Source: Bdellovibrio bacteriovorus HD100 (GTDB lineage: Bacteria > Bdellovibrionota > Bdellovibrionia > Bdellovibrionales > Bdellovibrionaceae). Taken from it: a stretch of DNA of 64,000 bases. Shown here piece by piece: positions 1 through 16,714 of the stretch. Each line of letters opens with the position of its first letter. Position 1 is the first letter of the stretch. The stretch lies in contig NC_005363.1 in NCBI RefSeq assembly GCF_000196175.1, positions 2,914,001-2,978,000 of the forward strand. The letters are read 5' to 3'. A program made the position numbers and the translations under genes. The notes below the pieces were generated by a model. That model did not search any database and had not been told where the DNA came from. It saw only the letters and a program-made list of their open reading frames with translations.

Positions 1-1153
1 CAACGATCCCTGCAGTCACCTCCGCCGGGGAATGCAGGCAAAGGACCGCGATATTGGCTGGGGTTTCCTTGTCCAGAATCTGCTGACGTTCTTCTTCACG
101 CATTTTCAGCACGAATGAGAATGGATTTGTTTCATCAGAGGACATCTCGTGCTCAACATAAGCCGCCAGAATCGCCTTATAAACATTGCGAACCGCAGTT
201 TCAGACTCAGATTTCGTGGTGTTGCCTTCGCGCTCTTTCACCGCTTTCCCCAGACGAGCCCAGGCCATCGCCGGCACATCTGTGAACACGCGTTTGGAAG
301 TGTCCCAACCCAGGAACTCCATCAACAACGAAGCATCGCCAGCGGATTCATTCAAGGTGAACTCTGTCACTGCACGAGATGCCAGTTGCGGGTATTGAGC
401 CGCAATCGCCAGAATGTGCTGTTTCACGGCGTCCATATTGAACTGCGGCTCCACCACAGCGGCAGCGGCTGGTTCTGTTGCTGCTGCCACAACCTCTTCC
501 GGCTTCTCTTCGCCATCCTGGTCTTTTTCAGTGTGTTTGTATTCGTGGTTTTCTTTCAGTTCCTTGCGCGGATCCTGTGCACGACCGCGTCTCCACGCCC
601 AGAACATCAGGCCGGACAAAGCCAGCAATGACATGATCACGATCAGAGTCCACATTTTCCAGGTCAGCTCAGGCAGAATATCCGGCTTGGGCTCGGCCTT
701 TGGCGGATCTGCCGGAAGCTCAATGCGTTTGACCGTGACAGAATCACCCGCGGTCGCATCCAGATGCAATTTGGAAGTCAAAAGCTCTTTAATGATCTTT
801 TCTGTCTCGGGATTCACATTACGGGACAAAACCACAGAAATATCGGTTTTGGACTTCATCTCGTGAAGTTTATTGGTGGCTTTACCCAAAGTGGGAGCAT
901 CGCCCATCAAAGGCATGCCCGGCAGATACTGAACGTCCATTTCGTCATGGAACTCTTTCAGCTTCTTTTCATCACGGTCCATTTCGATGGCCACGACCAG
1001 AGTGTAGTCCGTGGGACGCAAAATCGTGTTCAGAACACTGCGCGCACGGGCTTCGTACACTGTTTCAAGAGATCCGATCTCTTCTATGTACTGGGCGAAG
1101 GACACCTGAGAAAACATCAACGACAGAAGAAGTGCAGAAAAACGTTTCATCAT
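1..1153 (-). CDS. FliF-FliG-like membrane fusion protein (3' end outside window)
   Basis: Partial gene; 384 codons are visible and the C-terminus lies beyond base 1. A signal peptide (about residues 1-21) is followed by a FliF-like stretch: LETVYEARARSVL near 29-41, TLVVAIEMD near 51-59, and AGDSVTVKRIEL near 135-146, which resembles the RGDSVTV segment before the last FliF membrane helix. One transmembrane helix spans about 166-188. The cytoplasmic part (240 onward) looks like FliG: NPFSFVLKM at 343-351 and KETPANIAVL at 362-371 match the FliG segment around the EHPQTIA motif. The large ring-building periplasmic part of normal FliF is missing. The start overlaps the upstream stop as ATGA, with a second ATG directly after it. 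It is last of the four operon genes seen here. A rotor-like role is inferred from domains; the FliG torque helix would lie outside the window. Confidence 0.72.
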   Translation of the reverse strand, partial: MMKRFSALLLSLMFSQVSFAQYIEEIGSLETVYEARARSVLNTILRPTDYTLVVAIEMDRDEKKLKEFHDEMDVQYLPGMPLMGDAPTLGKATNKLHEMKSKTDISVVLSRNVNPETEKIIKELLTSKLHLDATAGDSVTVKRIELPADPPKAEPKPDILPELTWKMWTLIVIMSLLALSGLMFWAWRRGRAQDPRKELKENHEYKHTEKDQDGEEKPEEVVAAATEPAAAAVVEPQFNMDAVKQHILAIAAQYPQLASRAVTEFTLNESAGDASLLMEFLGWDTSKRVFTDVPAMAWARLGKAVKEREGNTTKSESETAVRNVYKAILAAYVEHEMSSDETNPFSFVLKMREEERQQILDKETPANIAVLCLHSPAEVTAGIV

Positions 1154-2127
1154 TTGATCCCTTTATCTTTCGCGAGAATGGCACCTGCCAGCATTTTAAG
1201 GTGCGGATACTGAGACTGCTTTTCGATCCTTTGGATATCTGCGGTGAACTCACTCACCACATTCAGCTCCTGAACAGCCACGAGGAAGCTGTCTTCCCAG
1301 ACTTCATCCTTGCTCTTGGCGGCCTCCGCCAGATGCTTTTTCAGGTCGCCCTGAATCAGGGAATGATTCAGTACCAGTTGCTTGTACACAAACGGCTTCA
1401 TCGCCTTTGGATAATTTGCATAATTTTTGTAAACACGGTTCAAAAGCTCCTTACGAGCCTCGCCGTCACGCACACGGGCCAGCATCTGCAGGCCTTCATT
1501 CACTTCGGTTTTGGAAAGCAGCATTTTGCCCAGCAAAACCCGGCCTTCACTACTGAGAGGCTCGGTCTGAATCAGCACATCCGCCACAATTTCACGGCGG
1601 AAAGCATCACGGCTGGTTTTGTGGAAGCTCTCAATTTTTTTCAAATCTTCAGCAGCCGGAGTCCCCAGACGCAGCAAGGTTTTTGCTGCAAAACTGTGGA
1701 CCTGTGCCGCATCCCCGACAACACCCTTGTTGGCCTCAGTCAGGAAGTTGACAATTTTGGACTGCAGCGCCTGCACGTCCTTCTTTTCTTCCGCTTTCCA
1801 CTGGATGTTGGAGACATCCAGCACATAGATACTGGCCTGGAAAAACTCTTTGTTTTCTTTCATTGTACGCTCTGGCCCAAACGATGCCATCAGCGTTGTG
1901 AAGTCGTGTTGCTTCCAAGCCTGCCCCGTCCTGGAGGACAAATGGGTGTTCACCGCCATAGAGTGGGACTTTTTAAGTTCATCCCAGGTCCCTTGACCCG
2001 AACGGATTCCCGCTTGGCGCGCCTGTGGCTTTTGGCTTTGCAGATAGCCTGCATAGCCCAATGCCGCGCCAACAACCAGCACGGCCCCCACGATGACACG
2101 TTTTTTGTTTGTGTTTTTATCAGACAT
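1150..2127 (-). CDS. Single-pass membrane protein with helical repeats
   Basis: 325 residues. The N-terminus is short and basic, then comes one membrane helix at about residues 9-28 (VIVGAVLVVGAALGYAGYL). The rest is largely alpha-helical and probably periplasmic, with repeat-like segments from about 120 to 320 that resemble HEAT/TPR-type solenoids (for example AKTLLRLGTPAAEDLKKIES). I cannot assign a family. It overlaps its downstream neighbour, the FliF-FliG-like gene, by 4 bp (ATGA) and abuts the upstream barrel gene by one base, so the group is very likely translated as a coupled unit. A scaffold role beside the FliF-FliG-like protein is inferred from position only. Confidence 0.75.
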   Translation of the reverse strand: MSDKNTNKKRVIVGAVLVVGAALGYAGYLQSQKPQARQAGIRSGQGTWDELKKSHSMAVNTHLSSRTGQAWKQHDFTTLMASFGPERTMKENKEFFQASIYVLDVSNIQWKAEEKKDVQALQSKIVNFLTEANKGVVGDAAQVHSFAAKTLLRLGTPAAEDLKKIESFHKTSRDAFRREIVADVLIQTEPLSSEGRVLLGKMLLSKTEVNEGLQMLARVRDGEARKELLNRVYKNYANYPKAMKPFVYKQLVLNHSLIQGDLKKHLAEAAKSKDEVWEDSFLVAVQELNVVSEFTADIQRIEKQSQYPHLKMLAGAILAKDKGIK

Positions 2128-2711
2128 CAGTCAAACCCCACAAAACGAAGACCCGCAAAAAGGGTCATAAAGCTATATTTGACGTTCTCATCTTCTGATG
2201 ACGGCGCCGTCAGACTGGAACCCATGGAAACCTGCCCGATCAGCAGCAAATCAGACATCACCGGAATTTCAACGCCGCCCCGGATGGTCAAATCGATCAA
2301 AGAAGCATTGAAGTCATCCACCGCCAGATTGCTCAAGCCCAGGTTTGCGGCAATGAACGGAGTTGGACGCCAGATTTTTGCTTCCGAAGAACTGTCGACC
2401 ACAACGCGCATGCCATTAACACCAAACATATAGTAACGACCACCCAGCGCGATGCGCGTAAAGGGCAGCTGCTTGCCTCCGCCGCCCGCCATCTCCATAA
2501 AGGACAAAGTCAGGGCTGTGTTCAAGGCCGGATTATTGATCGAATAGTTCACTTCCATCGTGGTGGAAGATTCGATGGACTTGTCAACACCAGCACTGGG
2601 GAACTGATACTTCAAAGAAGTCATGCCCATGCTGACATCCCAATCAGATGTCAGCGCCGCATGAGCCGGAACGTACAAGAATAGAAAAATCAGCGCCCCA
2701 AGAAACTTCAT
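2127..2711 (-). CDS. Small outer-membrane beta-barrel protein
   Basis: 194 residues with a clear signal peptide (MKFLGALIFLFLYVPAHA). The mature part alternates polar and hydrophobic residues, with aromatic-rich strands such as RIALGGRYYMFGV and a C-terminal FAGLRFVGFD. This is what an eight-stranded outer-membrane barrel of the OmpA/OmpW size class looks like. No enzyme motif is visible. It abuts the lipoprotein gene upstream and the membrane protein downstream, so it is probably an envelope partner of the FliF-FliG-like operon. Barrel topology is inferred from pattern; function is unknown. Confidence 0.75.
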   Translation of the reverse strand: MKFLGALIFLFLYVPAHAALTSDWDVSMGMTSLKYQFPSAGVDKSIESSTTMEVNYSINNPALNTALTLSFMEMAGGGGKQLPFTRIALGGRYYMFGVNGMRVVVDSSSEAKIWRPTPFIAANLGLSNLAVDDFNASLIDLTIRGGVEIPVMSDLLLIGQVSMGSSLTAPSSEDENVKYSFMTLFAGLRFVGFD

Positions 2712-3619
2712 CAGCGAACCCTGTTTTCATTACGCTTTTCGATTTCCACGTTGGAAGCCGGATAGCGCATTTCGGCCCCTGTTTTTGGCAATGGAGCCAT
2801 TCCCAGACGCTGATAGACGTCGGACAGATACTGATAAGCCACTTTGTTGTATGGATCGATTTTCAAACAGCGTTCCCAGGCGATTTTCGCGCCTTCAAAG
2901 TCCTTCTGCAGGTACTTGATGGAGCCTTTCAACAGCCACGCATTGTTCGAGTACTCATCCAGTTGCAACGCTTTGTCGATTTCGACAAGGGCTTTGTCAT
3001 ACTGGCCCTTTACAATCAACTGCTGGCCCTGGAAGACAAAACCCACCACCCGATCCGTGCGATCACGTTCGGCAGAGGGCATGCCTCCGGAAAGACGCGG
3101 AGAAAACAAAGCATCCTTATAGAATGAAGACGTGTTTTCCAGAAGCGCGACACGAAGTTTAAGCTCCTGCATTTCTGCCAGCAGCTCTTCCATTCTTTTG
3201 TCTTCAGGCTTTTTGTCCTTGTCCTCCGGCTTTGGCTTTTGTGGATCATTCTTTTTCTGATCCTCATTCTGAGCCAGCTCTTCCGCCTTCTTTTCCTCGT
3301 CGGACAAAGGATCCATACGAGTCGCCACCGCAAGGCTTTCCCCTTCGTTGACTTTGACCATGACTTCTTTTGTGCGATAGTTCTGCTTTTCAAAGATCAG
3401 GAAGAACACATCACCGAGCTTTGATTCCTCTTTCACCTGAAGAGGAGCGATGCCCAGAAGTTTCTTCTCCTGACTTTGCACGTCCTTGATGTAAACCTTG
3501 GCGCCGTTGGGATAGGACTTGATTGAATACTTTCCTGCGCATGCAGAAAGCAACACTGGCACCAGAGTTACAGACAACAATCCAAGTTGCCTTGCAGTTA
3601 AGATTTTCATTACCACCAT
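2711..3619 (-). CDS. PEGA/TPR lipoprotein
   Basis: 302 residues from the first ATG; a second in-frame ATG at 3610 (MKILTARQLG) is an equally likely start. A lipobox (LLSAC) ends the signal peptide. A PEGA-like domain follows at about residues 30-105 (SYPNGAKVYI, with repeated aromatic/valine strands), then a Lys/Glu-rich linker and coiled coil (about 110-165). At least two TPR units lie at about 200-270 (YDKALVEIDKALQLD, FEGAKIAWERCLKIDPYN). PEGA-TPR lipoproteins usually act as periplasmic or surface scaffolds. It is the first gene of the minus-strand operon that ends with the FliF-FliG-like protein, so it probably anchors that assembly to a membrane. Its intergenic region is shared with the divergent plus-strand barrel gene. 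Confidence 0.8.
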   Translation of the reverse strand: MVVMKILTARQLGLLSVTLVPVLLSACAGKYSIKSYPNGAKVYIKDVQSQEKKLLGIAPLQVKEESKLGDVFFLIFEKQNYRTKEVMVKVNEGESLAVATRMDPLSDEEKKAEELAQNEDQKKNDPQKPKPEDKDKKPEDKRMEELLAEMQELKLRVALLENTSSFYKDALFSPRLSGGMPSAERDRTDRVVGFVFQGQQLIVKGQYDKALVEIDKALQLDEYSNNAWLLKGSIKYLQKDFEGAKIAWERCLKIDPYNKVAYQYLSDVYQRLGMAPLPKTGAEMRYPASNVEIEKRNENRVR

Positions 3620-3685: not shown

Positions 3686-4303
3686 ATGAAGAGCTTACTA
3701 ACCTTAGTCCTATTCCTAACTGTTCCCCATCTTGCGAATGCGGAATTTCAAGCGCCGGTAATCCGCGCGAAGATGTCCATGTTCAGTACGACTGTATCCG
3801 CCGGTGAACAGGTTAACGAAGAGCCTTTGGGGTCCATGTTAACGCTCCAGCCGATGGTTCTATGGAACTTTCCTTCCATCAACTCCCGCATGGGAATCCA
3901 TTATATTATGGATTTCTCAAGCAATTACGGTTTCACCCCTATTTCCGGTATTGGGCTGACGGGATATTACTATTTGAAGGGTTTGCCGGCTTCTTACGAA
4001 ACAACGCCGGATGATACGCTGGTGCAGAAGTCCAAACCAGGCTTCTTTACGTTCGCCAGCTTCACGCCGGTGAATTTCAACTTGAATAAAAAAGAATCCA
4101 CCCCGAATGCGGGTGACGGTTTTTCTTTCAGTGCGCTTTTATATGAATTCATGCTGGGCGTGGGTTACGAATACCCACTTCGTCCCAATGCGCTGATCGC
4201 CGTGGAAATCTCCACCCGCGAGGCCAGCGGCGGAGACGGCAGTACAAAGTTCAGCTACTCCGGCCTGGGCCTGGGAATTTCCTTCACTACTTCCTACTAT
4301 TGA
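3686..4303 (+). CDS. Outer-membrane beta-barrel protein, unknown role
   Basis: 205 residues with a signal peptide (MKSLLTLVLFLTVPHLANA). The rest alternates hydrophobic and polar residues with many Tyr, Phe and Gly and ends in an aromatic segment (LGLGISFTTSYY), typical of a transported beta-barrel. No family is recognised. It is transcribed away from the PEGA lipoprotein operon and converges on motB, with a shared bidirectional terminator in between. It has no visible Shine-Dalgarno sequence before its ATG, so it may be translated from a short leader. Confidence 0.72.
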   Translation: MKSLLTLVLFLTVPHLANAEFQAPVIRAKMSMFSTTVSAGEQVNEEPLGSMLTLQPMVLWNFPSINSRMGIHYIMDFSSNYGFTPISGIGLTGYYYLKGLPASYETTPDDTLVQKSKPGFFTFASFTPVNFNLNKKESTPNAGDGFSFSALLYEFMLGVGYEYPLRPNALIAVEISTREASGGDGSTKFSYSGLGLGISFTTSYY

Positions 4304-4346: not shown

Positions 4347-5306
4347 CTACTGAGTCGCCGCAGGATTCAACTCAGATTCATACTTCTGAGCCTTGTTTTC
4401 CAGATCCTGGATCTTTCTTTGCAATTTATCCAGCTGCTGCTGTTTACGACGCTGCTCCTGCTGCTCTTTGTGACGCTTCTGAGCCTCATCGTATCTTGCC
4501 TGGGCCTGCTTCATTTTTTCCTGCAGACTGGCTTCACGCTGCTGATGTTCGATCTCTTCCTTGGTCAGCTGCTTGGAGAACTGTTTTTGCTGAAGCTTGT
4601 AGGCCGCTTCGGCATCGTCCAGTGTCACCGCCACCACCACACGGCGGTTCAGGACCTTGTTGGCCGGGATTGACACCCCTGCCTTGTCCACTTCCGGCGC
4701 CAGAGGATGACTGGATCCGAAACCGGCTGCTGAAAGCAGCTTGGAGTCGACCCCACTTTCTTCAAAATAACGAACCACCGAGCTTGCCCGCAAAGAAGAC
4801 AACTCCCAGTTGGACTTCACCAGACCGCTTTGAATCGCGTCGCTGTCGGTGTGACCTTCCACCGCAATCTTGTTCACGCCCTCTATTGAGCGTAAAGCAC
4901 TGACCACCCGGCGCAGATTCGGCTTGGCCGTCTCTTTCACTTCCACCGCTCCGGAGTCAAACAACACTTCGCCGTCGAATTTCAACAGCAGGGTGTTATT
5001 GCCGTCCTTGATGATCTCCACGCCATTCAGGTCGCCGGAGCCTTTAAGGATGTTCATGATTTTTTGTTCAGCCAGCAATGCCGCACTGACTTCCTTGATG
5101 TTACCACCGAAGTACTTTGCCACTTCCTTACGAACCAGATCGAACTTTGTATTGTCAAAGCGGGACATCGAATACATAAGAACGAAGAATCCGAAGAGAA
5201 GCGTCATCATGTCGGCGTAACTGACAAGCCAGTTGGATTCGTCATGAGCCATTTCATGCTCATGCTCCTCCAAATGCACTCTGCTGCGTTTATTACGCTC
5301 TCCCAT
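4347..5306 (-). CDS. motB: MotB-type stator protein with C-terminal coiled-coil extension
   Basis: 319 residues. The cytoplasmic N-terminus leads into the single membrane helix that carries the proton/sodium-binding aspartate, Asp32 (SYADMMTLLFGFF). A plug/linker follows, then an OmpA-like peptidoglycan-binding domain at about 115-232 (VEGHTDSD, LSSLRASSV, NRRVVV). Unusually, about 80 further residues follow (roughly 235-312), very rich in Gln, Lys and Glu and strongly predicted by pattern to form a coiled coil; ordinary MotB ends soon after the OmpA fold. It starts just after motA ends. B. bacteriovorus is known to carry several motAB pairs that serve its flagellum. The tail would reach into the periplasm and could contact another envelope protein; that is inference. 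Confidence 0.93.
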   Translation of the reverse strand: MGERNKRSRVHLEEHEHEMAHDESNWLVSYADMMTLLFGFFVLMYSMSRFDNTKFDLVRKEVAKYFGGNIKEVSAALLAEQKIMNILKGSGDLNGVEIIKDGNNTLLLKFDGEVLFDSGAVEVKETAKPNLRRVVSALRSIEGVNKIAVEGHTDSDAIQSGLVKSNWELSSLRASSVVRYFEESGVDSKLLSAAGFGSSHPLAPEVDKAGVSIPANKVLNRRVVVAVTLDDAEAAYKLQQKQFSKQLTKEEIEHQQREASLQEKMKQAQARYDEAQKRHKEQQEQRRKQQQLDKLQRKIQDLENKAQKYESELNPAATQ

Positions 5307-5308
5307 AT

Positions 5309-6118
5309 TTACGCCGCCTTCTTCGCTGTATCCACTTTCAGAGCACCGTCATCCTCGCGCTGAGCAGGAGACAGGAAAGACTTCAGATATTCCTTGATAA
5401 ACAAAGGGTGCTTCTTTTCGTGAACCAGAAGAATTCCTTCTTTGATGATTTCACGCAAGGTCACGTCGGCTTTGGAAACCGTCTGCAGCTTTTCGGAAAT
5501 CGGGATCAAAATCAGATTGGCCACAACCAGACCATAGAATGTCGCCACCAGCGCGGTTGCCATCGCGGGACCGATACGATCCTGCGCACCCGGCTCACCC
5601 AGTGTTTGCAACAGGGAAATCATCCCCAGTGTCGCACCCAAAAGACCGAATGCCGGCGGGAAGCGGGACATCGTATGCCAAACTTTGATTTCTTCATCAT
5701 CGCGCTTCTTTTTACCACGCAGGGCATTTGTCAGAACGTCTGCCAGCTCATCGTAGTTAAAACCATATTCCACCAACAACTTCACACCGTCTTTGATGAA
5801 CGGATGAGTCTCTGGCTTCATCAACGCAGGAACGGATTTTGGGTCACGGCGATAGGCTTCCGAGATTTCCACGATAGTTCCAATGGTGCCCAGATAGTCG
5901 ACTCTTTCACGACCCAGCATTTTGCGGGTGACGATCTTCAGGGCTGTCCAAAGACTCTTGAAGTTGAAGCTCAACAGAGCCACGGTCAAAGTACCACCGA
6001 TTACAAGCACGATCCCGTGCACATCGGCGAACACCTTCGGATTCTTTGCCGCATCGAGGATTGAAAATACTGCAATACTGACTGCAGCCAAAATACCTAA
6101 AAGCCCCGCTATATTCAT
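5309..6118 (-). CDS. motA: MotA/PomA-type stator protein
   Basis: 269 residues from ATG at 6118, chosen because it has a strong GGAGGA site and begins the first membrane helix (MNIAGLLGILAAVSIAVFS); an ATG further upstream would add 24 residues with no family resemblance. There are four membrane helices, a cytoplasmic loop with the conserved acidic/basic region (EAYRRDPKSVP), and the characteristic second pair of helices with PPAFGLLGATLGMI and GLVVANLILIPISEKL. It forms the ion-driven stator with MotB, which follows two bases later. The loop and helix pattern is more PomA-like than E. coli MotA-like, which does not by itself settle whether protons or sodium are used. Confidence 0.93.
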   Translation of the reverse strand: MNIAGLLGILAAVSIAVFSILDAAKNPKVFADVHGIVLVIGGTLTVALLSFNFKSLWTALKIVTRKMLGRERVDYLGTIGTIVEISEAYRRDPKSVPALMKPETHPFIKDGVKLLVEYGFNYDELADVLTNALRGKKKRDDEEIKVWHTMSRFPPAFGLLGATLGMISLLQTLGEPGAQDRIGPAMATALVATFYGLVVANLILIPISEKLQTVSKADVTLREIIKEGILLVHEKKHPLFIKEYLKSFLSPAQREDDGALKVDTAKKAA

Positions 6119-6706: not shown

Positions 6707-7926
6707 AGAGGACACTGCAAGAGCGCGTATTCCACCCCGCTCTTGCTGTTTTCCACAAACAGGTGTCTTCCCCCTGGAAGCACCGTCCACAATCCCCGCT
6801 CCGACATCGCCTTCACCGCCACCTTGTCAGTCACAGTAAACTTCTTTGCTTCCCCTGCCGGGGCGGCCACGGTCAGTCCGTATTCTTTCAAAATATTATA
6901 AGGTCTTTTTCGTTCTGCGTACCAGACTGCGCGAGGCTCCTGCTCGCCATAGACTTTGTACTCTTCGCGATAATCCAAAGGCTCCCCGGTTTCAACGGCC
7001 AAAGCCGCCGGCGCTCCTTGCAAATGAGTCAAAGGATAGAAAGCCCACTTTTCATCGCGCTCCAGCCAACCGCTGGTTTTAAAACCGATCTGCTCATAAG
7101 GTGCCACTACAAAGTCCGAAAAAGGATTGGTGCCGGCGTCCACTGATAGCCTTTGCGTTTCAAGACTCAAACGATCCGGAGCGACCTTATAGACCGCAAA
7201 GTCTTTGCCTTCACCGCTGGAATACGCCAGCAATCCGGGCTCGATACGCACACGGGCTTTGCCATTGGAATATTCCTGCCCGCACTTCAGCACACTGAGC
7301 ATATTACCGGATTCGACTCCCATCAGGGTGTCCGGGGATCTTGGGACTTCGCGCGGAATCACACTCTGCCAGGCCTGGCTATTGTAGAACCCCAGGCGTC
7401 CGTTAGCTTCCAAGGAAACAAAGGTACTCTGATTCAGGCGTCTGAAGATCACATCAGACTTCCAGTTGTGGCCACAGACCCCCAGTTGGTTCAGCATTAT
7501 TGCGCTGTCGCCCTCCATTCGGATTGGCAGCGTGCGCCCGCTATCAGTGCGCACAAAGGCCATATTGCCGAAAGTCGCAGCAAGGGAATATCTGGATTCT
7601 TCAAACGGATAAATAGCGTTGGCAATTGTCGACTTGGGTTCTAAATACGGAGTGAAGTCCTGAGTAAAACCCAATTTATTCACAATCCAGGTGTCGCCCT
7701 TGGCATTCAAGGTCAACGCACGATAGTCGCCGTCAGCAAAACGATCCATCGCTGCCAGCATCGAGGTCTGTTCAAAACGCCCGGACTTCATGGTCGTGCA
7801 TTCCGGAAGCTTGGGGCGTGGCTTGCTGTTTTCAAAGATCATCGCCAGCACCAGCCCCAGGGCAATAACCACTGCCAGGATCACGGGGACTTTAATAAAA
7901 AACGGAATGGCTTTTTTATTGGTCAT
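6703..7926 (-). CDS. Membrane-anchored periplasmic protein, last gene of surface-complex operon
   Basis: 407 residues. One N-terminal membrane helix at about 10-31 (FIKVPVILAVVIALGLVLAM) is followed by a large periplasmic domain made mostly of short beta strands with aromatic and Gly-Asp turns (DYRALTLNAKGDTWIV, RLGFYNSQAWQSV). This pattern fits a beta-propeller-like or WD-like fold without a clear family signature. It overlaps the upstream VWA gene by 11 bp, so translation is probably coupled. As the only inner-membrane-anchored member of the six-gene operon it could connect the surface proteins to the inner membrane. That role is inference; the fold call is weak. Confidence 0.72.
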   Translation of the reverse strand: MTNKKAIPFFIKVPVILAVVIALGLVLAMIFENSKPRPKLPECTTMKSGRFEQTSMLAAMDRFADGDYRALTLNAKGDTWIVNKLGFTQDFTPYLEPKSTIANAIYPFEESRYSLAATFGNMAFVRTDSGRTLPIRMEGDSAIMLNQLGVCGHNWKSDVIFRRLNQSTFVSLEANGRLGFYNSQAWQSVIPREVPRSPDTLMGVESGNMLSVLKCGQEYSNGKARVRIEPGLLAYSSGEGKDFAVYKVAPDRLSLETQRLSVDAGTNPFSDFVVAPYEQIGFKTSGWLERDEKWAFYPLTHLQGAPAALAVETGEPLDYREEYKVYGEQEPRAVWYAERKRPYNILKEYGLTVAAPAGEAKKFTVTDKVAVKAMSERGLWTVLPGGRHLFVENSKSGVEYALLQCPL

Positions 7927-9325
7927 TTTTCACCTTGCTGCAATCCAGCTTCACAAGTCCACTGTTGGATCCCATGATCACATCCTTAAAGACGCACTTT
8001 TCATCCACCCGGACTTCATAGACGCCCTTACCCAGAACCAGCGGCACATTCGTCAGATGATTTCCCAGAAGGGCAAATCGTCCGTCATAGACATAAATGC
8101 CCCGCACTTTGGCATCTTCCACCACCAAAGCCCCGGCTTCCTGCACATCATAAGTGTATTCAGCATTGGGAACAATCAGGTAGTTTTCCAGAGTCTTTTC
8201 AAAGAACGGATCGCGGTAAAGGCGGATAGCCCACTTCCCCGTTGGCAGTGGAACACGCACATCACTGGTGAATCGCTTCACCACCTTACGATTTGTGTCC
8301 AGCAGCTCAATCTTCATCAGCTTTTCAACAAAGTTCGCCTGAAAGAAACCCTGACCACCCACCTTCAGCGTCACCTTCTTTTTCGGAGGGATCACGAACT
8401 CTGAAAACTTGTATTTGGGTTTCAAGTTCACGATCGCCAGATATTTTCCCGGCGGAACCTCAATCCCCTGGGACGCATGAAACTTGCGATAGATTTCATT
8501 CGGAGAGTCGGCCCGGAATAAAAACACCGTCGCGTTGGGCTGAGGACTGCTGACGAACAGATTCTTCCCCGGATTCAGCTGCTTGTCCAAGTCCTGGAAC
8601 AGCTCTTCCAGCTTTTCTTCATCATCAGCCTGGGACATGTCACCAATACAGGCCAGCTTATCCAGAACATCCGGCTGGTTCTGTAAACCAAAAGCCACGA
8701 CAAAGAATTTTAGATCGACGTCTTTTCCGCTGAGTTCAGCCGCGATTTTACAAGGATCCTGACCGCAGGTTTCCTCTCCGTCGGTGAAAAGAACCACCCG
8801 CTTCGGGCCCTTGTAATGCTCAACATCTTTATAGGCGTCCTTCAAGGCCTGTCCTATCGGAGTCATCCCCACCGGCTCAAAGCCTTTCACAATCCCTTCA
8901 ATCGCACCCAGTTTGCTTTGTGCGGGTTCGATTGCCAGATAGTTGTCCTTGCAGTCTTTCTTGCGACGGGATCCAATCACCCGCAGACCACTGCTGGTCT
9001 TTTCGGTCCACTGGGACATCAGATAGCGGGCCAGCAGTTTTTTTAGAACATAGATTTTGGTTTTCTTCGGCCCCATCAACTGCCCCATGGAACCGGAGCT
9101 GTCGATGACATATTCCACCAGCGGAATGGCGGTCGATGGCAGATCTTCGGCCTTCACTTCGCCCGAGGCATTGGCGGGAATTTTGGAGGGATCAAAATCC
9201 ATCTTATCAAGAAGATCCTCAGCTTTTAACTGCGTCATTCCCTGCGGCACGGAAGGTTCGTCCTTTTCCTGGGCCGAGGAGGCAAAAGCACACAAAGTCA
9301 GAACCAGCAGAATCAGCTTTTTCAT
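7916..9325 (-). CDS. VWA-domain protein with complete MIDAS
   Basis: 469 residues with a signal peptide (MKKLILLVLTLCAFASSA). A von Willebrand A domain spans about 68-250 and all MIDAS metal-binding elements are present: DSSGS at 75-79, Thr155 in GMTPIG, and Asp182 in FTDGEE. The domain also contains several cysteines (DCKDN, ETCGQDPC, LACIGD) that may form disulfides. About 200 C-terminal residues form beta-rich segments with basic patches, perhaps carboxypeptidase-regulatory-like domains (VPPGKYLAIV, VPLPTGKWAIRLY). VWA domains of this kind mediate metal-dependent protein adhesion. It overlaps the barrel gene upstream and the membrane protein gene downstream. Secreted VWA adhesins are known in myxobacterial gliding; whether this one is comparable is inference. 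Confidence 0.88.
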   Translation of the reverse strand: MKKLILLVLTLCAFASSAQEKDEPSVPQGMTQLKAEDLLDKMDFDPSKIPANASGEVKAEDLPSTAIPLVEYVIDSSGSMGQLMGPKKTKIYVLKKLLARYLMSQWTEKTSSGLRVIGSRRKKDCKDNYLAIEPAQSKLGAIEGIVKGFEPVGMTPIGQALKDAYKDVEHYKGPKRVVLFTDGEETCGQDPCKIAAELSGKDVDLKFFVVAFGLQNQPDVLDKLACIGDMSQADDEEKLEELFQDLDKQLNPGKNLFVSSPQPNATVFLFRADSPNEIYRKFHASQGIEVPPGKYLAIVNLKPKYKFSEFVIPPKKKVTLKVGGQGFFQANFVEKLMKIELLDTNRKVVKRFTSDVRVPLPTGKWAIRLYRDPFFEKTLENYLIVPNAEYTYDVQEAGALVVEDAKVRGIYVYDGRFALLGNHLTNVPLVLGKGVYEVRVDEKCVFKDVIMGSNSGLVKLDCSKVKNDQ

Positions 9326-10494
9326 CGTGGTTTCAGCATCTTTCCGACATAGTCTTCCATGCGAAGACCAATCATGATTCGAATGAAGTTCTGGCTTTCT
9401 TTGTAAGTGCCGCCTTCAGGAATACTATAAAAACCATCCGGTGCATTGGTCGGCGCCCCGGAGAAAGTCACCTGACTGGAGCTCATCCCCGTGCTGACAT
9501 CCACCGAGAACCTCTTGAAGAAGGGAATAAAGCCCATGTGCACCAGGGTTGTCGCCCCAAGGGAAAGCTCCATCGCTGTTCCTGTAGAGCTGTCTCCCCG
9601 GGTGACTCCGCTGTCTTTCATCGAATAAGACGGGAAATAGGTCAGGTCGAAGTAAATACGGTTGAAGCTCCAGTCGAAGGACTTTTCTGAGTTGAAGATA
9701 TTTGGACCAAACAGATAGTGGAAGTTTGCACCAAGCCCCATGCCAGAACCCGCACTGCTCAAAACATACTCATCGTCATTGGCAGTTTTGAAATCCGTGG
9801 ACTTGGTCACAAGCTTCAGCGTGGGACGCAGCTCTTTCCAAATTGGCAGAAAACGGTAATGAATCGCAATCATGCTTTCGCGATAGGTGGTTTGTTTTTC
9901 TTCGCGATTGTAGGATTTCACCGGCACACTGCCACCGGAACTGCGGTATTCAAGACCGATCCTCCACAGGAAGTCGAAGTACCACATCAGATGAGTGTCC
10001 ATGAAATTGTGTTCAAAGGTTTTGTACTGGTTGGCTTGGTTGGGAGAGGCACTTTCGATCTTCCCTTGATAAGGGCCGAAATCCAATTGTACATAACCCT
10101 GTTCGTAAGGATCCGGTTCGTCCGGCTGGAGGCCGCCTATTGGCGGGACTTCAGGTTCATCGTACTTTTTTTCCTGAAGCCGCGCCAGACTGACCACGCG
10201 GTCACGAACTTTCGGGAACTTGGTGATGGTTTTTGAGTCCAGCAGAATCAGGAACTTTCCATCCTGGATGTTTTCAACAGAGCCCCGGGAAATGACCTCG
10301 ATGTCGTCATCCTTGATGCGCGCAATAACCACCAGGTCACCGACCCGAACCAGCGGTGTTGATGCGACGATCACCACATCATCATTAACCCCGATGATGG
10401 GCACTGAGTTCTTCCGGATCACATCCGGATTTATGATGCTGGCAAAGCAGACATTGGCGAAAATGAATATGCTGAAAAATAGATGAAGCCTCAC
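9322..10494 (-). CDS. Outer-membrane beta-barrel with N-terminal periplasmic domain
   Basis: 390 residues. The signal peptide (MRLHLFFSIFIFANVCFA) is followed by a small beta-rich domain at about 20-110 (VIIGVNDDVVIVA-like strands) and a Pro/Glu/Asp-rich linker (EPEVPPIGGLQPDEPDP). From about 130 to the end come long amphipathic strands rich in Tyr, Trp and Phe (HLMWYFDFLWRIGLEYRS, FNRIYFDLTYFPSYS), as in a large beta-barrel. It lies between the giant Ig-like lipoprotein gene and the VWA gene, overlapping the latter by 4 bp. It may be the outer-membrane anchor or export channel of the surface complex. No specific family is recognised. Confidence 0.75.
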   Translation of the reverse strand: MRLHLFFSIFIFANVCFASIINPDVIRKNSVPIIGVNDDVVIVASTPLVRVGDLVVIARIKDDDIEVISRGSVENIQDGKFLILLDSKTITKFPKVRDRVVSLARLQEKKYDEPEVPPIGGLQPDEPDPYEQGYVQLDFGPYQGKIESASPNQANQYKTFEHNFMDTHLMWYFDFLWRIGLEYRSSGGSVPVKSYNREEKQTTYRESMIAIHYRFLPIWKELRPTLKLVTKSTDFKTANDDEYVLSSAGSGMGLGANFHYLFGPNIFNSEKSFDWSFNRIYFDLTYFPSYSMKDSGVTRGDSSTGTAMELSLGATTLVHMGFIPFFKRFSVDVSTGMSSSQVTFSGAPTNAPDGFYSIPEGGTYKESQNFIRIMIGLRMEDYVGKMLKPR

Positions 10495-10537: not shown

Positions 10538-13500
10538 CTAGCGTGCGCGGTAAATCCGGCCCTTGCTGCGACTGACAAGAAGGATCTGACCCGAGTCAAA
10601 ACTGACAATACTGTCGACTGGATCCTGCACGGAATTCGCATAGACCTGATAGCTGTCCAGATCGATAGTGAACACCTGATTGGCGTCTTTCATGGTCCCG
10701 ATGATCATTCGATCATCGGGACGGATCACCAGACGACGCCCCTGCCCCGGCACATCAAATGGCGAGCTGCTGATCTCATTGACCCCGACAAACTGAACAT
10801 CCGCCGCCGTCGGAGTTTTAGCAGGCCCGTCGGTCAGGACGGCAACGCCACCCGTTCCAGACAGCAATGCCATCACCCGATGCGAGCTCACATCCACAAC
10901 CAGATCCGTCGGTTTGCAGTCCTCATGCCCTGCAACCCCATCCCACAAAGTAATCTGGGCAACCAACCCAGGTGTTCCCCCTGAGCGGACATTGCTGACA
11001 TTGAAGACAAACAGTTTGTGCGAAACAGATGGACTGGTCTGCTGGGTCGCCACGTACAGGCGTTCCAGATTTTTATTCAAGACCATTCCTGAAATTTTGG
11101 CGGTGCCGAAGTTGTAGATCTGAACAGCACTGGCCGGATTCAGATAGTCATAAAGCAACTTGTCGCCGTTGTCTGAAGCATAGAAGACATACGATGAATC
11201 CAAGGACTCAGTCAGACGCAAATCCGAGTTCAGGCTGCTTGTGAACAAATTCTGAGGACAGTCACCTATACACTTGTTTCCTGTACCCAGGCTTAAGCCC
11301 GTCAGATCCGTCGCCGGGATACGCAGTGCTTCTGTCGTCAGACCAAACGGACCTACACGCCCCGTTTGCGATGTGAGCAGAATATCAAAGCTGCCGGACG
11401 TCTTCACCAAAGCCATACGCTTGGTCTGAGTGCCTGCCAACCAAGGCAGATCTTCCATAAAGTTCCATGGAGGATTCACCAGGGTACCATTGGGCTTGTT
11501 CATCGCCCCATTCACCAGAGTCAGATCCCACAGAAAGTGCTTGGTGAACATGCCCAGTGTGTAGGTTCCCGCAAAGACCAGGTGATCGACGATGTTCGAC
11601 CCCAGAGTCAGCGTCACCGGCACCTCGTTAAGCCAGTTCAGGGACAGCGGATTCATCGATGGCAGACTTTCGGGACGGGCCGCAAAAATATCAAAAAGTT
11701 TTTCCGCCAACAGGTAGTTGTTGCGGATCTTCACTTTCCATTCCTTGGTTGCCACATAGTTTCCGTCGGTGGCTTCCGCCCGGATCATGAATTCGCCAGC
11801 TTTCAGAGGGCCTGCACCATCCGGATCCACTGAGGCATCCGTGTCTTTGGCTTTGAATTCAAAGTTCGGACCCTCGTCATAACGAAGCTCATCGTTCACA
11901 TACCAACGATAGAAAAGTGTATCGTTCGCATTCGGATCCGATGCCGAGATCGAGAAGGACACCGGCGCTTTTTCCGACGCCAGAACATCCGTTCCCGCTG
12001 GCAGGAAGCTGTTGATTACCGGTGATGTTTCAAACGGCGACAGCGGATTTTGCACTTTCAGATAGAAGCTGACCGTGTCCGTTTCCTGGGTTTTCAGGTC
12101 ACGCACACGGACGCGCACCTGATGACCGTCCCCGCCTTCTGCAGTCACATCGGCCGGATAGGCCGGATTCCAGCTGATGATTCCTTTAGCCGAATCGATG
12201 CACATGCCGTTGGCTTCAGCGCACGGACGCGGAGAGGTCACCAGTGAATACTCCAGGGAGTTTCCTTGGGAGTTATTGACGATCACTGGATACTTAAACG
12301 GTGCTGACGGCATACTGGCCGCCGTGTGCGGCATAAAGTGAACTGGCGTTCCCGCCAGGTTCTGACGAGGGCTCACGAAGTAAGCCGGTGCCACGACATT
12401 GATTCTAAGCGGAGTCGCACTGGCAGAACGAGGCAACGTCAAACCATCGCGGTCCACATCGCCATTGTCATTCACGAACAGTTCCGCAGAGTGCTCACCA
12501 ATATGAGTTCTTTGTGGGCACCATTCCATTTTATAGCGCTGGCGCAAAGCACTACCAACCAGCTCTGGCGCCCCTACCGGAGTCAGCTTTGGCACTGCCA
12601 AATCCAAATTCAAATTAGTCCCATCACCGCACTGAGAAACTGAGACATTGCGTTTGTAAGTGGCATCGTACGTCGCAATTTCGGGAGCCCAAGTTGTGCT
12701 GTTGGCATGGCACGAATAAGGATCGGCCACCACCGGATCCAATGTCGCATGCCGCAAAGGCACACCATTGGCGTCCCGGCACAGAGTCATCAGTGTTGAG
12801 AAGCTACCGCCACTAGGAACATAGGCGTCACTGTCGTAGAGGTAAATATCCTGACTGAAATAGGTGTCAGCAAAAATACGGAAGTTATTACCAGAAACAA
12901 TTTCAGCAATCGATGGCACCTGATTTTTATTGATCAGGCGGATTTTATAGAAGGCATCCGTGGACTGCTGAATATCCGGCATCGTTTTGGCATCATAGAC
13001 GCGCATTTTTACAACCAAACCATCCGTGCCTGAGAATTTTTTTGAGTCAGAATCCGTCGGATTCCACACCAGCTTGGCAGTGGTCTTGGAGCCAGGTCCC
13101 GGGGTGAGTGCTTCGCGTTTTTCGATGAAAACAGACAGACCTTCCGGCCTTGGCACCCACGTCGAAGTCTTTAAGTCATACACTTGGGCATCAAGATCGA
13201 AATTGACCGTCTGAAGCTCGGATCCTTTGTTGTTATCCACAGCATAAATATTGTAGATAGACTCGGTGGCTTCATTGAAATCCCCCAGAGTCAAAGGAGT
13301 GCCCAACGCAGCTCCGGTACCTCCGGCCAATGGTGTGAAACTGCTGTTCGTCAGCACCGGCTTGGTATTGATCTCTTTCACCACCAAAGTCACATTCGTC
13401 ACAGTGCTCAGAGTTCCCCAAGGGGACCTTTCAACAGCCGTGACCTTGAAACTGAAGTTTCCGGAATAGTCACTCGGGTGTGGAGTGTAGCGGAAGTAAC

Positions 13501-16500
13501 ATCTGTTTGTCTTGAAATAGTTCCGATCCGCAACCGCTGGCAATGCAGAACACACATTGGTTCCTGTGCACGAAGAGTTTGCAAGACCCGTTGTTCTGCA
13601 GACGCTCCACTGCCCCACGGGCCCCGTACCGACGGCTTGAACAGAAAAGGTGTAATAGTCTTTCGGATCCAGAGGATACCAATAGTCATCCAGTGTGTAA
13701 TACGGCGACGGCAGCTTCAAAGCGCTGTCTGCCACCTGAATCAAACCATCCTGAAGATTCGTACCCTGAGTCGCAACAATTGTCGGGCTGCTGACAATGA
13801 TCGACGGATTGTTGACATCCGTGAACCGCAACGTCGCCTGACGACTGTTGGAAGCGGGGGCTGTGGTTGTCCATCCCAGATTCTCCACTCGGCGAACCCA
13901 GGCGTTGAGGGAGACCGTCCCAACCGACATCACCAGCGGATCAATCAACTCATAGTAGGTATAATTTGCCGTACGGACTCGCGTACCGGCCGGTAAATTA
14001 ATTGCAGTGGTTCCTGTCGCGCGGAAGAACCTGACAACACCCTGATGTTCAAAGACACCGGTGTTTTCAACCTTTAGATTCGAAGCTTCCGCAGGCAGTG
14101 TATCCACAAAGGTATTGATAGCTTTTGCCGGAGCCCGGTATCCATCAAGGGCCCGCACTCGGAACTTACGATAGATATCCCCCTGATTGGAGGTTCCGCG
14201 CTGAACCATATGTTCATTCCAGTCATGAAGCCCCGGAGGATCCGGCAATGTCGGCGAAGTGGCCGAAGGAGTTCCGGAAACTGCGCGGACCGTAAAGACT
14301 GGCGCCCCGGCCAGCGTGTTGCTTGAAGTAAGCAAAGTGCCATCAGCAATCAGAATTGGTTTTCTCCAGACAGGAATCGAAACACTGCTCACTCCAACCG
14401 GCATGGCGATTTCATCCGGAGTTTCAAATTCCATCAATCGGCTTGCCGTGCGCACCACGGTGAACTTTGGAATTGTGATGGCCGTCGCAGTCGTCGGTCG
14501 GCTGAATGTCACGATACCACGATCATAAAGAGCCGTCGGATTTGTGACAGTGACTCCGGCTGGAACCGTCGTGCCGATCACTGTGACAGTGTTCGCTGCC
14601 GCTGTAGTGTCATTCGCCACCACTGGGAACAGAACCTCTAGGTCACCTGTGTTTATGGTGACGTTCACTTTCGGCCTAAAGACGATATTACTTCCTGGGA
14701 CGGTGAAGGTATTCGATGTCGTAAAGGTTCTGGCCACAGTATCCGTCGCAGAGCGCATAAATCGCACATAGCCTGCCGCTGTTCCCGAGATGTCTGCGGA
14801 CGTGTTCATAACACGGATACAGAATGAAGAGGCATTACGACGATAGGTGGGCTCTGTCATCCCCACCATGCGACGCAGGACTAGCATTTGATTGGTCCCG
14901 CAATCCACCACATTAGTCAGTGAATCAATGGCCCCTTTATTGGTGGCCGTGCCAGTCATACTGAAATCGTATGCCTCCAGCCACAACGGATCGTTGTCCC
15001 TGTCAGAAACTGTGTAGGTGATCGAATTCTGAATCTGATTTGTTCTGACCTGAACGGTCATGTCCCCCCCTGCCAGGCAGGGTTTGGTATTGCGGTCCGC
15101 AGCTGTCAGAGTCAGGGTCTTTGGAGCCGCGTTGCCGTTGTGATTGTCCTTCAAAGTGACAATGAAGGTGCCCGTTTTAAGAGTGTGCAGAGGCTTCCAC
15201 AGGTAGGTGTAGCGAACCCGATCCGCCAGCACCTCCGGCGAACCGACTTGAGTAATGTAAGACTTCAACGTTCCGGCAGTTGTCACCGTCAGCTCATCTG
15301 GAGGCGACGCCGGATTCGGCCCGACGTTATCGGGGTCTTGGAAATCCAAATAAAACTGATAAGGGGCCGCGCCATCCGGCACCTCTTTCGCGCAGTAATC
15401 ATACTCAATAGCGCTGCTGTTGACCGGATTCACTCCACCCAGCATGATCGGAGCCGCGTTGGTGTCTTTGACGGTGACCTGCACATTGGCCAGGGTCAGG
15501 CCGCCCAAAGCATCCGTGACTTCGAGTATGATGCTGTTTAGACCTTTTCGTGCGTCTTCATTGTTGGGTGTCCAACGAAGGGTGATTTCACCCGCATTGT
15601 TGATTTCTGTCGGAGCCATCTGTTCATTCAGATACAGCGGATTGGATCCGGAAATCGCCTCGGCCACAACTTTGATGGCATCGCCATCCTCGTCTTTGAA
15701 TTTAACGGTACACACCCATTCGGTGTTTTCATTCACGGTCGGTGCACAATTGTAGCTGTAAATGGGACGACGATTGACGTTTTCAACCAAAACCGGCCAG
15801 TCGACACGGCTGATCTTTCCACCGTCAGACAAAATCACACTCATTGTGTAAGGATCTGGGCGGCCATCATCATAGGTTGGCTCCCAGCGCACGATGCCTT
15901 CTTCGGCCGTGCGCAAAGACCCCTCGAGCATCCAGGCGTAAAACACCTGATCCCCATCCGGATCCCTGGCGGTGGCGCGAATTTCAATTTTTTTGCCTTC
16001 TTCCACCCGTTGTTGTTGCACCTTGGTGGTGGCTTTTTCATCCAGGACTGGCGGACGATTCACGATTCCAAATGGATAAGGCTCTGCCGTGACGTCACCT
16101 TCGGTGTTGTACACGAACTCCACGCCGAAAGACTTCATAAACGTCAAAAAATCATAGCTGTTGGAAAGACCGTTACGGATAAAACGGTACAACAAATCCG
16201 GATTGAATTCCGGAGAAATTCCAAACAGAGCCAGTCGTTCCTCCCGGAACTTGACCACCGCCTCCGTGATTTTCTGAATTTCATCTGGAGTATAAGTGCT
16301 CAGATCACGGCCCGGATAAGTCGACAAAAGATTATAGACCAGCGTCGTATCAAGGCTTGGCTGGATAATCGCATCCGGATACACCACGGCATACCAAGGC
16401 AGAGTACGATACTCCATCACCACTTTCAGAACCATGGCTCCGGAAGGACTCAGCCCCTTGGGCATGATGGAACGAATATAATCCGGCTTGGCATCTGTGG

Positions 16501-16714
16501 TCATATCCAGCAGGTTTTTGGTTTTCTTTTCCGCCTGGACAAATTCAGTCAGATACAGGGAAAACTTTTTTGTGCTGGCCGGGTTGACCTTGGTCATATC
16601 AAACTGCAATAGACTGCCCGGAGGAATCACGATTTCACTCGATTTCCCCTGCTCTTCAAGGCAGCCTGTCAACCAGACTGCCGCCAGAATCAGCGCCAAA
16701 GCTTTTAAAATCAT
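10538..16714 (-). CDS. Giant Ig/cadherin-like surface lipoprotein (2058 residues)
   Basis: The lipobox LTGC at residues 15-18 ends the signal peptide, so the protein is lipid-anchored. After an N-terminal helical region (to about 210) there are many tandem Ig-like or cadherin-like modules. They are recognisable by NRPPVLDE and NRRPIYS starts and by acidic calcium-type motifs such as RDPDGDQVFYAW, KDEDGDAI and SDRDNDPLW. Later modules (ASDPNANDTLFYRWYVNDE) precede a C-terminal 350 residues that look like a beta-propeller (LVIRPDDRMIIGTMKD). This is the architecture of large adhesins that project from the cell. The gene starts 28 bp after the second FG-GAP gene ends and is followed by the barrel gene 43 bp later. 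Its length and shape suggest a stalk or reach protein; ligand unknown. Confidence 0.85.
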   Translation of the reverse strand: MILKALALILAAVWLTGCLEEQGKSSEIVIPPGSLLQFDMTKVNPASTKKFSLYLTEFVQAEKKTKNLLDMTTDAKPDYIRSIMPKGLSPSGAMVLKVVMEYRTLPWYAVVYPDAIIQPSLDTTLVYNLLSTYPGRDLSTYTPDEIQKITEAVVKFREERLALFGISPEFNPDLLYRFIRNGLSNSYDFLTFMKSFGVEFVYNTEGDVTAEPYPFGIVNRPPVLDEKATTKVQQQRVEEGKKIEIRATARDPDGDQVFYAWMLEGSLRTAEEGIVRWEPTYDDGRPDPYTMSVILSDGGKISRVDWPVLVENVNRRPIYSYNCAPTVNENTEWVCTVKFKDEDGDAIKVVAEAISGSNPLYLNEQMAPTEINNAGEITLRWTPNNEDARKGLNSIILEVTDALGGLTLANVQVTVKDTNAAPIMLGGVNPVNSSAIEYDYCAKEVPDGAAPYQFYLDFQDPDNVGPNPASPPDELTVTTAGTLKSYITQVGSPEVLADRVRYTYLWKPLHTLKTGTFIVTLKDNHNGNAAPKTLTLTAADRNTKPCLAGGDMTVQVRTNQIQNSITYTVSDRDNDPLWLEAYDFSMTGTATNKGAIDSLTNVVDCGTNQMLVLRRMVGMTEPTYRRNASSFCIRVMNTSADISGTAAGYVRFMRSATDTVARTFTTSNTFTVPGSNIVFRPKVNVTINTGDLEVLFPVVANDTTAAANTVTVIGTTVPAGVTVTNPTALYDRGIVTFSRPTTATAITIPKFTVVRTASRLMEFETPDEIAMPVGVSSVSIPVWRKPILIADGTLLTSSNTLAGAPVFTVRAVSGTPSATSPTLPDPPGLHDWNEHMVQRGTSNQGDIYRKFRVRALDGYRAPAKAINTFVDTLPAEASNLKVENTGVFEHQGVVRFFRATGTTAINLPAGTRVRTANYTYYELIDPLVMSVGTVSLNAWVRRVENLGWTTTAPASNSRQATLRFTDVNNPSIIVSSPTIVATQGTNLQDGLIQVADSALKLPSPYYTLDDYWYPLDPKDYYTFSVQAVGTGPVGQWSVCRTTGLANSSCTGTNVCSALPAVADRNYFKTNRCYFRYTPHPSDYSGNFSFKVTAVERSPWGTLSTVTNVTLVVKEINTKPVLTNSSFTPLAGGTGAALGTPLTLGDFNEATESIYNIYAVDNNKGSELQTVNFDLDAQVYDLKTSTWVPRPEGLSVFIEKREALTPGPGSKTTAKLVWNPTDSDSKKFSGTDGLVVKMRVYDAKTMPDIQQSTDAFYKIRLINKNQVPSIAEIVSGNNFRIFADTYFSQDIYLYDSDAYVPSGGSFSTLMTLCRDANGVPLRHATLDPVVADPYSCHANSTTWAPEIATYDATYKRNVSVSQCGDGTNLNLDLAVPKLTPVGAPELVGSALRQRYKMEWCPQRTHIGEHSAELFVNDNGDVDRDGLTLPRSASATPLRINVVAPAYFVSPRQNLAGTPVHFMPHTAASMPSAPFKYPVIVNNSQGNSLEYSLVTSPRPCAEANGMCIDSAKGIISWNPAYPADVTAEGGDGHQVRVRVRDLKTQETDTVSFYLKVQNPLSPFETSPVINSFLPAGTDVLASEKAPVSFSISASDPNANDTLFYRWYVNDELRYDEGPNFEFKAKDTDASVDPDGAGPLKAGEFMIRAEATDGNYVATKEWKVKIRNNYLLAEKLFDIFAARPESLPSMNPLSLNWLNEVPVTLTLGSNIVDHLVFAGTYTLGMFTKHFLWDLTLVNGAMNKPNGTLVNPPWNFMEDLPWLAGTQTKRMALVKTSGSFDILLTSQTGRVGPFGLTTEALRIPATDLTGLSLGTGNKCIGDCPQNLFTSSLNSDLRLTESLDSSYVFYASDNGDKLLYDYLNPASAVQIYNFGTAKISGMVLNKNLERLYVATQQTSPSVSHKLFVFNVSNVRSGGTPGLVAQITLWDGVAGHEDCKPTDLVVDVSSHRVMALLSGTGGVAVLTDGPAKTPTAADVQFVGVNEISSSPFDVPGQGRRLVIRPDDRMIIGTMKDANQVFTIDLDSYQVYANSVQDPVDSIVSFDSGQILLVSRSKGRIYRAR

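Follow-up and report, generated by a model that had tools for sequence, protein, structure and literature searches.

Introduction

FliG has so far been treated as a part of the flagellum only. The closest precedent for the protein reported here is the FliF-FliG fusion of Chlamydia. Bergeron (2016, PMC4768692) discussed this natural protein, in which a short FliF is joined to FliG in a non-standard setting, together with the injectisome. It keeps RBM2, has no RBM3 and carries the M region of FliG only, and no MotAB partner is described in that paper. Such fusions have also been engineered, and the joined ring protein and FliG still assemble (PMC11481574; works cited in PMC4768692), but these are laboratory constructs with full-length FliF, in the flagellum. 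Within FliF, the 34-mer stoichiometry belongs to RBM3, and isolated RBM3 assembles into rings (PMC8786727).

A second comparison is with the Agl-Glt system of Myxococcus and its relatives in Bdellovibrio bacteriovorus HD100 (PMC13104615, PMC12546842), which combines a proton motor, envelope-spanning proteins, outer-membrane barrels and a VWA adhesin. The TolQ-like Agl motors lack a FliG rotor. Gliding has been assigned to Agl/Glt-like clusters (PMC12546842, PMC9140294), and a 2026 review still regards the gliding machinery of Bdellovibrio as unidentified and as a major open challenge (PMC13104615). A 2025 survey reported rotor proteins in species without filaments and raised another function as a possibility (PMC12199754).

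Here, we analysed a window of the HD100 genome (the whole stretch of 64,000 nucleotides; G000:C1:2914001-2978000, in a genome of 3,782,950 bases), in which a gene set, called the module below, encodes a predicted fusion of RBM3 with a whole FliG together with its own MotA and MotB. In contrast to Agl-Glt, the module has true MotA/MotB with a FliG surface, and the gliding clusters described for HD100 (PMC13104615, PMC12546842) sit elsewhere in the genome. With the flagellar rotor-stator core it shares FliG N-M-C, RBM3 and the final membrane helix, MotA, MotB with plug and OmpA domain, and charges of the R281/D289 type. It differs from that core in that the two rotor proteins are fused and RBM1, RBM2, TM1, the beta-collar and the EHPQ motif are lost; FliM/FliN, export gate, rod and filament are missing from the gene set, and the partners are outer-membrane, PEGA/TPR and VWA proteins. 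Because every core part has a recognisable relative there, we classed the module with the flagellar rotor-stator core. A separate class would be warranted if it were shown to rotate and to have an output other than the flagellum. We found no description of the module in the literature, and no mention of the genes Bd3015-Bd3018 in the literature on the organism; subscription journals and preprints were outside the scope of this search.

The Fusion Gene

An earlier note, made from the sequence alone, had proposed that an open reading frame at 2-1153 of the minus strand combines the last periplasmic segment and final membrane helix of FliF with a FliG-like region and a signal peptide. The reading frame is real and extends 578 bp beyond the left edge of the window; read past this edge, the full gene has 577 codons (L002:14420-16153, minus strand), and the proposed combination in one protein was borne out. 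Judged from the sequence and from an AlphaFold2 model (mean pLDDT 72; about 85-90 across most of the FliG_C part), the architecture is signal peptide, RBM3, transmembrane helix (TM) and FliG N-M-C:

2..1153, minus strand: FliF(RBM3)-FliG fusion, first 384 of 577 codons
1091..1153, minus strand: signal peptide, about residues 1-21 (sequence MMKRFSALLLSLMFSQVSFAQ; helix 2-23 in the model)
713..1075, minus strand: periplasmic RBM3-type ring-building domain, residues 27-147 (structure and a weak profile match)
578..661, minus strand: single transmembrane helix, residues 165-192 (secondary structure of the model; sequence)
2..349, minus strand: in-window part of the cytoplasmic FliG N-M-C region, residues 269-563 (Pfam, structure and profile)

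A gene for a protein with HAMP and a SpoIIE-type phosphatase domain (L002:12672-14423, plus strand) converges on the fusion gene. Its position is kept in the genus, and it is a possible regulator.

Neighbouring Genes

The neighbours agreed with the earlier description, which listed a PEGA/TPR lipoprotein, a barrel and a helical-repeat membrane protein, with motAB 3 kb away; they also include a second barrel. The features beside the fusion gene are as follows:

1150..2127, minus strand: N-in membrane protein with an armadillo/HEAT-like helical repeat, probably periplasmic (model pLDDT >90 for most of residues 60-320)
2127..2711, minus strand: small outer-membrane beta-barrel OMP1
2711..3619, minus strand: PEGA/TPR lipoprotein with lipobox LSAC and invariant Cys27, the most conserved partner
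3686..4303, plus strand: small outer-membrane beta-barrel OMP2
4347..5306, minus strand: MotB with plug and OmpA-type peptidoglycan-binding domain, by inference the motB2/Bd3020 of the literature
5309..6118, minus strand: MotA of the rotor-associated clade (type 1), by inference the motA2/Bd3021 of the literature
7916..9325, minus strand: secreted VWA protein with MIDAS residues D75, S77, S79, T155 and D182
9322..10494, minus strand: 390-aa secreted protein adjoining the VWA gene, found with the module in families f1 and f4
10538..16714, minus strand: giant lipoprotein of 2058 aa with a weak PKD-like match, found with the module in part of its range, membership uncertain
16743..22025, minus strand: giant lipoprotein of 1760 aa with FG-GAP repeats and fn3, found with the module in part of its range, membership uncertain

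Four genes, those of the PEGA lipoprotein, OMP1, the helical-repeat protein and the fusion, are coupled by overlaps of TGATG or ATGATG and thus look like one operon, while OMP2 lies on the opposite strand and MotA-MotB form a second pair. The MIDAS motif of the VWA protein is complete, and all five residues were invariant in nine sequences. The dN/dS values of six core genes against the nearest relative were 0.01-0.05; therefore, the gene set is a maintained one. Pfam searches found no FliM, FliN or export genes among the ten genes of the first 9.3 kb of the window.

The helical-repeat protein was also considered as a second FliG or FliF, and this was not supported; its structural match is a generic ARM/HEAT one (best Z = 11.9). 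The 1760-aa lipoprotein (FG-GAP, E = 1.2e-57, with fn3 repeats) resembles an integrin-like surface protein.

FliG Identity of the Cytoplasmic Part

The FliG identity of the fusion is firm. In Pfam, FliG_M matched residues 358-424 (E = 1.4e-7) and FliG_C (PF01706) matched residues 459-555 (E = 4.6e-10), both above the gathering score. A C-terminus without FliG_C, or one matching another family, had been named beforehand as what would refute the rotor reading; this test was run, and the C-terminus is FliG_C. A search of PDB sequences gave Thermotoga FliG (1lkv) as the best solved chain (E = 6.2e-12). When a profile of 18 fusion orthologs was compared with the flagellar FliGs of the phylum, the N, M and C regions were aligned in order (E = 3.5e-17, probability 98.9). 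The model matched complete FliG (Z = 13.9), the FliG chain of the MotAB-FliG complex 8ucs and FliG_C alone (Z = 12.3), the last with an rmsd of 2.3 A over 89 residues. The proposed relationship to FliF and FliG was thus recovered by profile and structure for FliG, and mainly by structure for FliF RBM3.

The fusion did not reach the cut-off of the NCBI equivalog model TIGR00207 (44.1 bits vs 226.7), so it is FliG-derived and not a flagellar FliG. A segment KETPANIAVL had been taken as the counterpart of EHPQTIA. It does lie at this position, but the FliM-binding EHPQ motif itself was kept in 0 of 18 fusions, compared with 25 of 25 flagellar FliGs of the phylum. This loss fits a putative motor without a switch ring.

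Other candidate families were rejected. MgtE_N, which has a FliG-like fold, matched sister proteins weakly and the window protein not at all, and the FliG matches of the fusion are far stronger. Matches to DUF4381 and CcmD lay on the membrane helix and its flanks, did not reach the curated cut-offs and were regarded as chance.

The MotA/MotB Partner and the Torque Residues

The stator pair was identified by MotA_ExbB, MotB plug and OmpA domains (Pfam, E = 5.4e-23, 2.4e-17 and 9.6e-17, respectively). Among solved chains, PomA and MotA come closest to the window MotA (E about 1e-47 to 1e-45). The window protein scored E = 3e-41 with a PomA model vs 6e-5 with TolQ and is thus not a TolQ-type motor such as AglR. 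In a MotA tree, 12 type-1 MotAs from across classes formed one clade (support 100/99) and 11 flagellar MotAs of the phylum formed a separate one (99/98); the other rows have long branches, and their position is uncertain. A DNA search of E. coli genomes gave no match to the window MotA, as expected at such a distance.

We compared the charged residues on the two sides of the presumed contact. On the torque helix, the R281 equivalent was R or K in 16 of 18 fusions and the D289 equivalent was D or E in all 18; equivalents of K264 and R297 are absent, and the D288 position is variable and not kept. Among 14 partner MotAs, the R90 equivalent was R in 13 and K in one, and the acid equivalent to E98 is absent. 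Accordingly, of the two classical charge pairs, rotor and stator both retain one, although the register of the R90/E98 loop rests on an alignment with one gap.

Distribution and Gene Linkage

Among 369 Bdellovibrionota genomes, the fusion was found in 26, the PEGA/TPR lipoprotein in 25, the type-1 MotA in 25 (E below 1e-110) and the VWA protein in 26 (E below 1e-60), of which 25 are fusion genomes. These genome sets are nearly identical (hypergeometric p near 1e-36, an overstated value, as the genomes are related). The sole fusion genome without a MotA match is G009, in which motA is cut by a contig end. Within Bdellovibrio, the whole set is present in 9 of 24 genomes and nothing of it in the other 15; genus g6 (3/6) and g140 (9/12) are likewise patchy. 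This patchiness inside genera indicates that the module genes come and go together. A contig scan for the fusion found Bdellovibrionota only, but it used just two peptide patterns and does not show absence elsewhere.

Gene neighbourhoods were read in stretches of up to 20 kb around the fusion orthologs. In families f1, f4, f22 and f24 the fusion lies with MotA, MotB, the PEGA/TPR lipoprotein, OMP1 and OMP2 in shuffled order; in family f10 a contig end precedes the stator genes. The fusion, MotA, PEGA and VWA genes of genomes G028 and G215 are located on one contig within about 25 kb. In two other classes the genes are adjacent, and f22 and a second type have fusion, motA and motB in one gene run. 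In f22 an RBM3 paralog comes first and is followed by fusion, motA and motB; the gaps in L091 are at most 37 bases.

Directly upstream of the fusion in other classes lies a second RBM3-TM protein without a recognisable FliG (E = 3.9e-19 to the N-terminus of the fusion), which suggests a two-protein ring:

L091:7849-9021: upstream RBM3-TM protein
L092:7347-8324: upstream RBM3-TM protein
L093:7299-8534: upstream RBM3-TM protein
L090:10853-12358: upstream RBM3-TM protein

Relation to the Flagellum

It was asked whether genomes with the module lack flagella. This was refuted: FlhA was found in 27 of 28 genomes searched and an ordinary FliG in nearly all, and in HD100 the flagellar FliF-FliG operon is intact at 3.31 Mb. 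The module therefore exists beside the flagellum and does not take its place. Since the module genomes are flagellate, presence of the module without a flagellum cannot be used as proof of its independence.

The same observation is compatible with an accessory role, in which the fusion forms an extra ring or docking platform round the flagellar motor and recruits the third MotAB pair for more torque or for altered behaviour inside prey. The MotAB pair of the window has been called a flagellar stator, and the expression of motA2/motB2 was changed in fliL mutants (PMC11323537). The main contrary evidence to a separate module is the work of Morehouse et al. (2011; ref 41 of PMC11323537), according to whose title the three MotAB pairs of HD100 contribute to the motility of the single flagellum; on the strength of this title, the window pair may also serve the flagellum. 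However, the module is absent from 15 of 24 Bdellovibrio genomes and from most flagellate genomes of the phylum, and the fusion travels with outer-membrane and VWA genes and not with flagellar ones. The loss of RBM1/2 and EHPQ and the different clade of the module MotA also speak against an accessory. In two-hybrid assays, FliL (Bd1076) bound neither MotA2 nor MotB2, but the MotA2-MotB2 pair was negative as well, so that the assay is not decisive (PMC11323537). We regard the accessory role as unlikely.

A Proposed Rotary Module

The best reading remains the one first put forward from the sequence, a non-flagellar rotor with its own MotAB stator. It is carried by the co-occurrence in 26 of 369 genomes, the adjacency of the genes in two other classes and the separate MotA clade; rotation has not been shown. 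That rotor and stator form a module separate from the flagellum seems quite probable to us. As an overall explanation, we give a dedicated, filament-less rotary motor a probability of roughly 0.65; no experiment supports it and its function is untested.

In the proposed machine, the RBM3 domains would build a ring in the periplasm, and each subunit would hang one FliG below the membrane; this assembly is inferred. A proton-driven, peptidoglycan-anchored MotA/MotB stator would push on the FliG_C helix and turn the ring, without FliM/FliN switch, export gate, rod or filament. At its periplasmic side the ring may hand torque on, by way of the helical-repeat protein and the PEGA/TPR lipoprotein, to the outer-membrane barrels, the VWA protein and possibly the giant adhesin-like proteins. 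The torque would move or tension the VWA and adhesin-like proteins, with surface movement or prey contact as the result. The MIDAS VWA protein, the giant FG-GAP/fn3 lipoproteins, the PEGA/TPR lipoprotein and the barrels suggest, by inference, an adhesive outer-membrane assembly that receives the torque. We hold an output on outer-membrane adhesins only tentatively, as it falls somewhat below an even chance. Gliding is one option among several, and prey attachment or entry is another.

The same parts could be arranged as a stationary platform, with the FliG-like ring as a fixed anchor pushed by the MotAB pentamer and MotB or a partner transmitting the force as in TolQR, ExbBD and Agl. In line with this arrangement, the module gene set has no recognised genes for rod, bushing or switch, and the peptidoglycan-binding MotB and the repeat proteins in the periplasm could bear the force without an intermediary. 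However, the retained RBM3 and the full FliG with torque-helix charges are what a rotor needs, and a MotB with an OmpA domain is the anchored side. Thus, we consider the platform improbable.

If the rotary motor is real, the flagellar rotor-stator core can exist independently of secretion and filament, and this is relevant to the evolution of the flagellum. The module is a concrete candidate both for the filament-less rotor proteins and for the gliding motor of Bdellovibrio, in a model strain with working genetics. It also offers an alternative reason for one of the three MotAB pairs of HD100, which has hitherto been assigned to the flagellum as a stator.

Origin of the Periplasmic Domain

The FliF identity of the RBM3 domain rests mainly on the structural model. 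Residues 27-147 matched FliF RBM3 of several S-ring structures with Z = 10-11.5 (rmsd 2.1 A over 84 residues for 7cg7), and the best unrelated fold reached Z = 8.7. By sequence alone the apparent kinship is weak: the profile match of the fusion to FliF 190-398 is colinear with E = 8e-4 and a probability of 25%, although the profile alignment places a GDSV motif at the same point in both proteins. YscJ_FliF (RBM1-RBM2, PF01514) had no match in the fusion, compared with E = 1.5e-53 for the flagellar FliF of the same genome. Of FliF, only RBM3 and the following membrane helix are kept. The earlier statement that the ring-forming modules of FliF are absent was wrong, as RBM3 is the S-ring module.

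An independent joining of FliG to a ring-building domain from the injectisome or sporulation RBM family could draw on this weak sequence kinship, on a marginal SpoIIIAH match in one ortholog (E = 0.0015) and on RBM folds being common to injectisome, sporulation and flagellar systems (PMC4768692), but it is very improbable, given that FliF RBM3 leads the structural list, that the order RBM3-TM-FliG is that of FliF and then its partner FliG, and that GDSV is placed as in FliF.

Diverged Gene Sets

Two further types of gene set were observed. Type 2 consists of a TPR lipoprotein, a 627-797 aa protein with FliG M/C, MotA and MotB. Its large protein matched the fusion by profile (E = 4.7e-22), and an acid stands at the torque-helix R281 position in 4 of 5 type 2 fusions. 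Type 3 has a PEGA lipoprotein, MotA, MotB, a 579-597 aa membrane protein with a weak FliG_C, a barrel-sized small protein and a giant lipoprotein. They are located as follows:

L049:7991-12917: type 2 set
L100: type 2 set
L101: type 2 set
L102:6659-12267: type 2 set
L103: type 2 set
L128:4210-14000: type 3 set
L129:4762-12741: type 3 set

This recurrence is the strongest sign of a machine and not of an accident in one lineage. The subfamilies have a much-alike gene set, namely PEGA/TPR lipoprotein, MotA, MotB, a ring-domain-TM-FliG protein, a small barrel and a giant lipoprotein. They may represent a class of flagellum-free machines with a FliF/FliG rotor and MotAB that drive outer-membrane adhesins, with at least three subfamilies in Bdellovibrionota, and this class might provide the motor still sought for surface movement or prey entry; we put this at a little under an even chance.

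A third FliG_C protein of the HD100 genome was also detected (L009:10105-11010, plus strand, genome 828105-829010; 301 aa, E = 2.9e-6), with a C-terminal coiled coil. Its gene follows directly downstream of a lipoprotein gene. In its DxSxS motif, its lipobox and its length, this lipoprotein agrees with Bd0875, a MIDAS adhesin required for the invasion of prey (PMC11003981). A similar lipoprotein occurs in another genus (L105), again about 1 kb from a protein that has FliG_C only.
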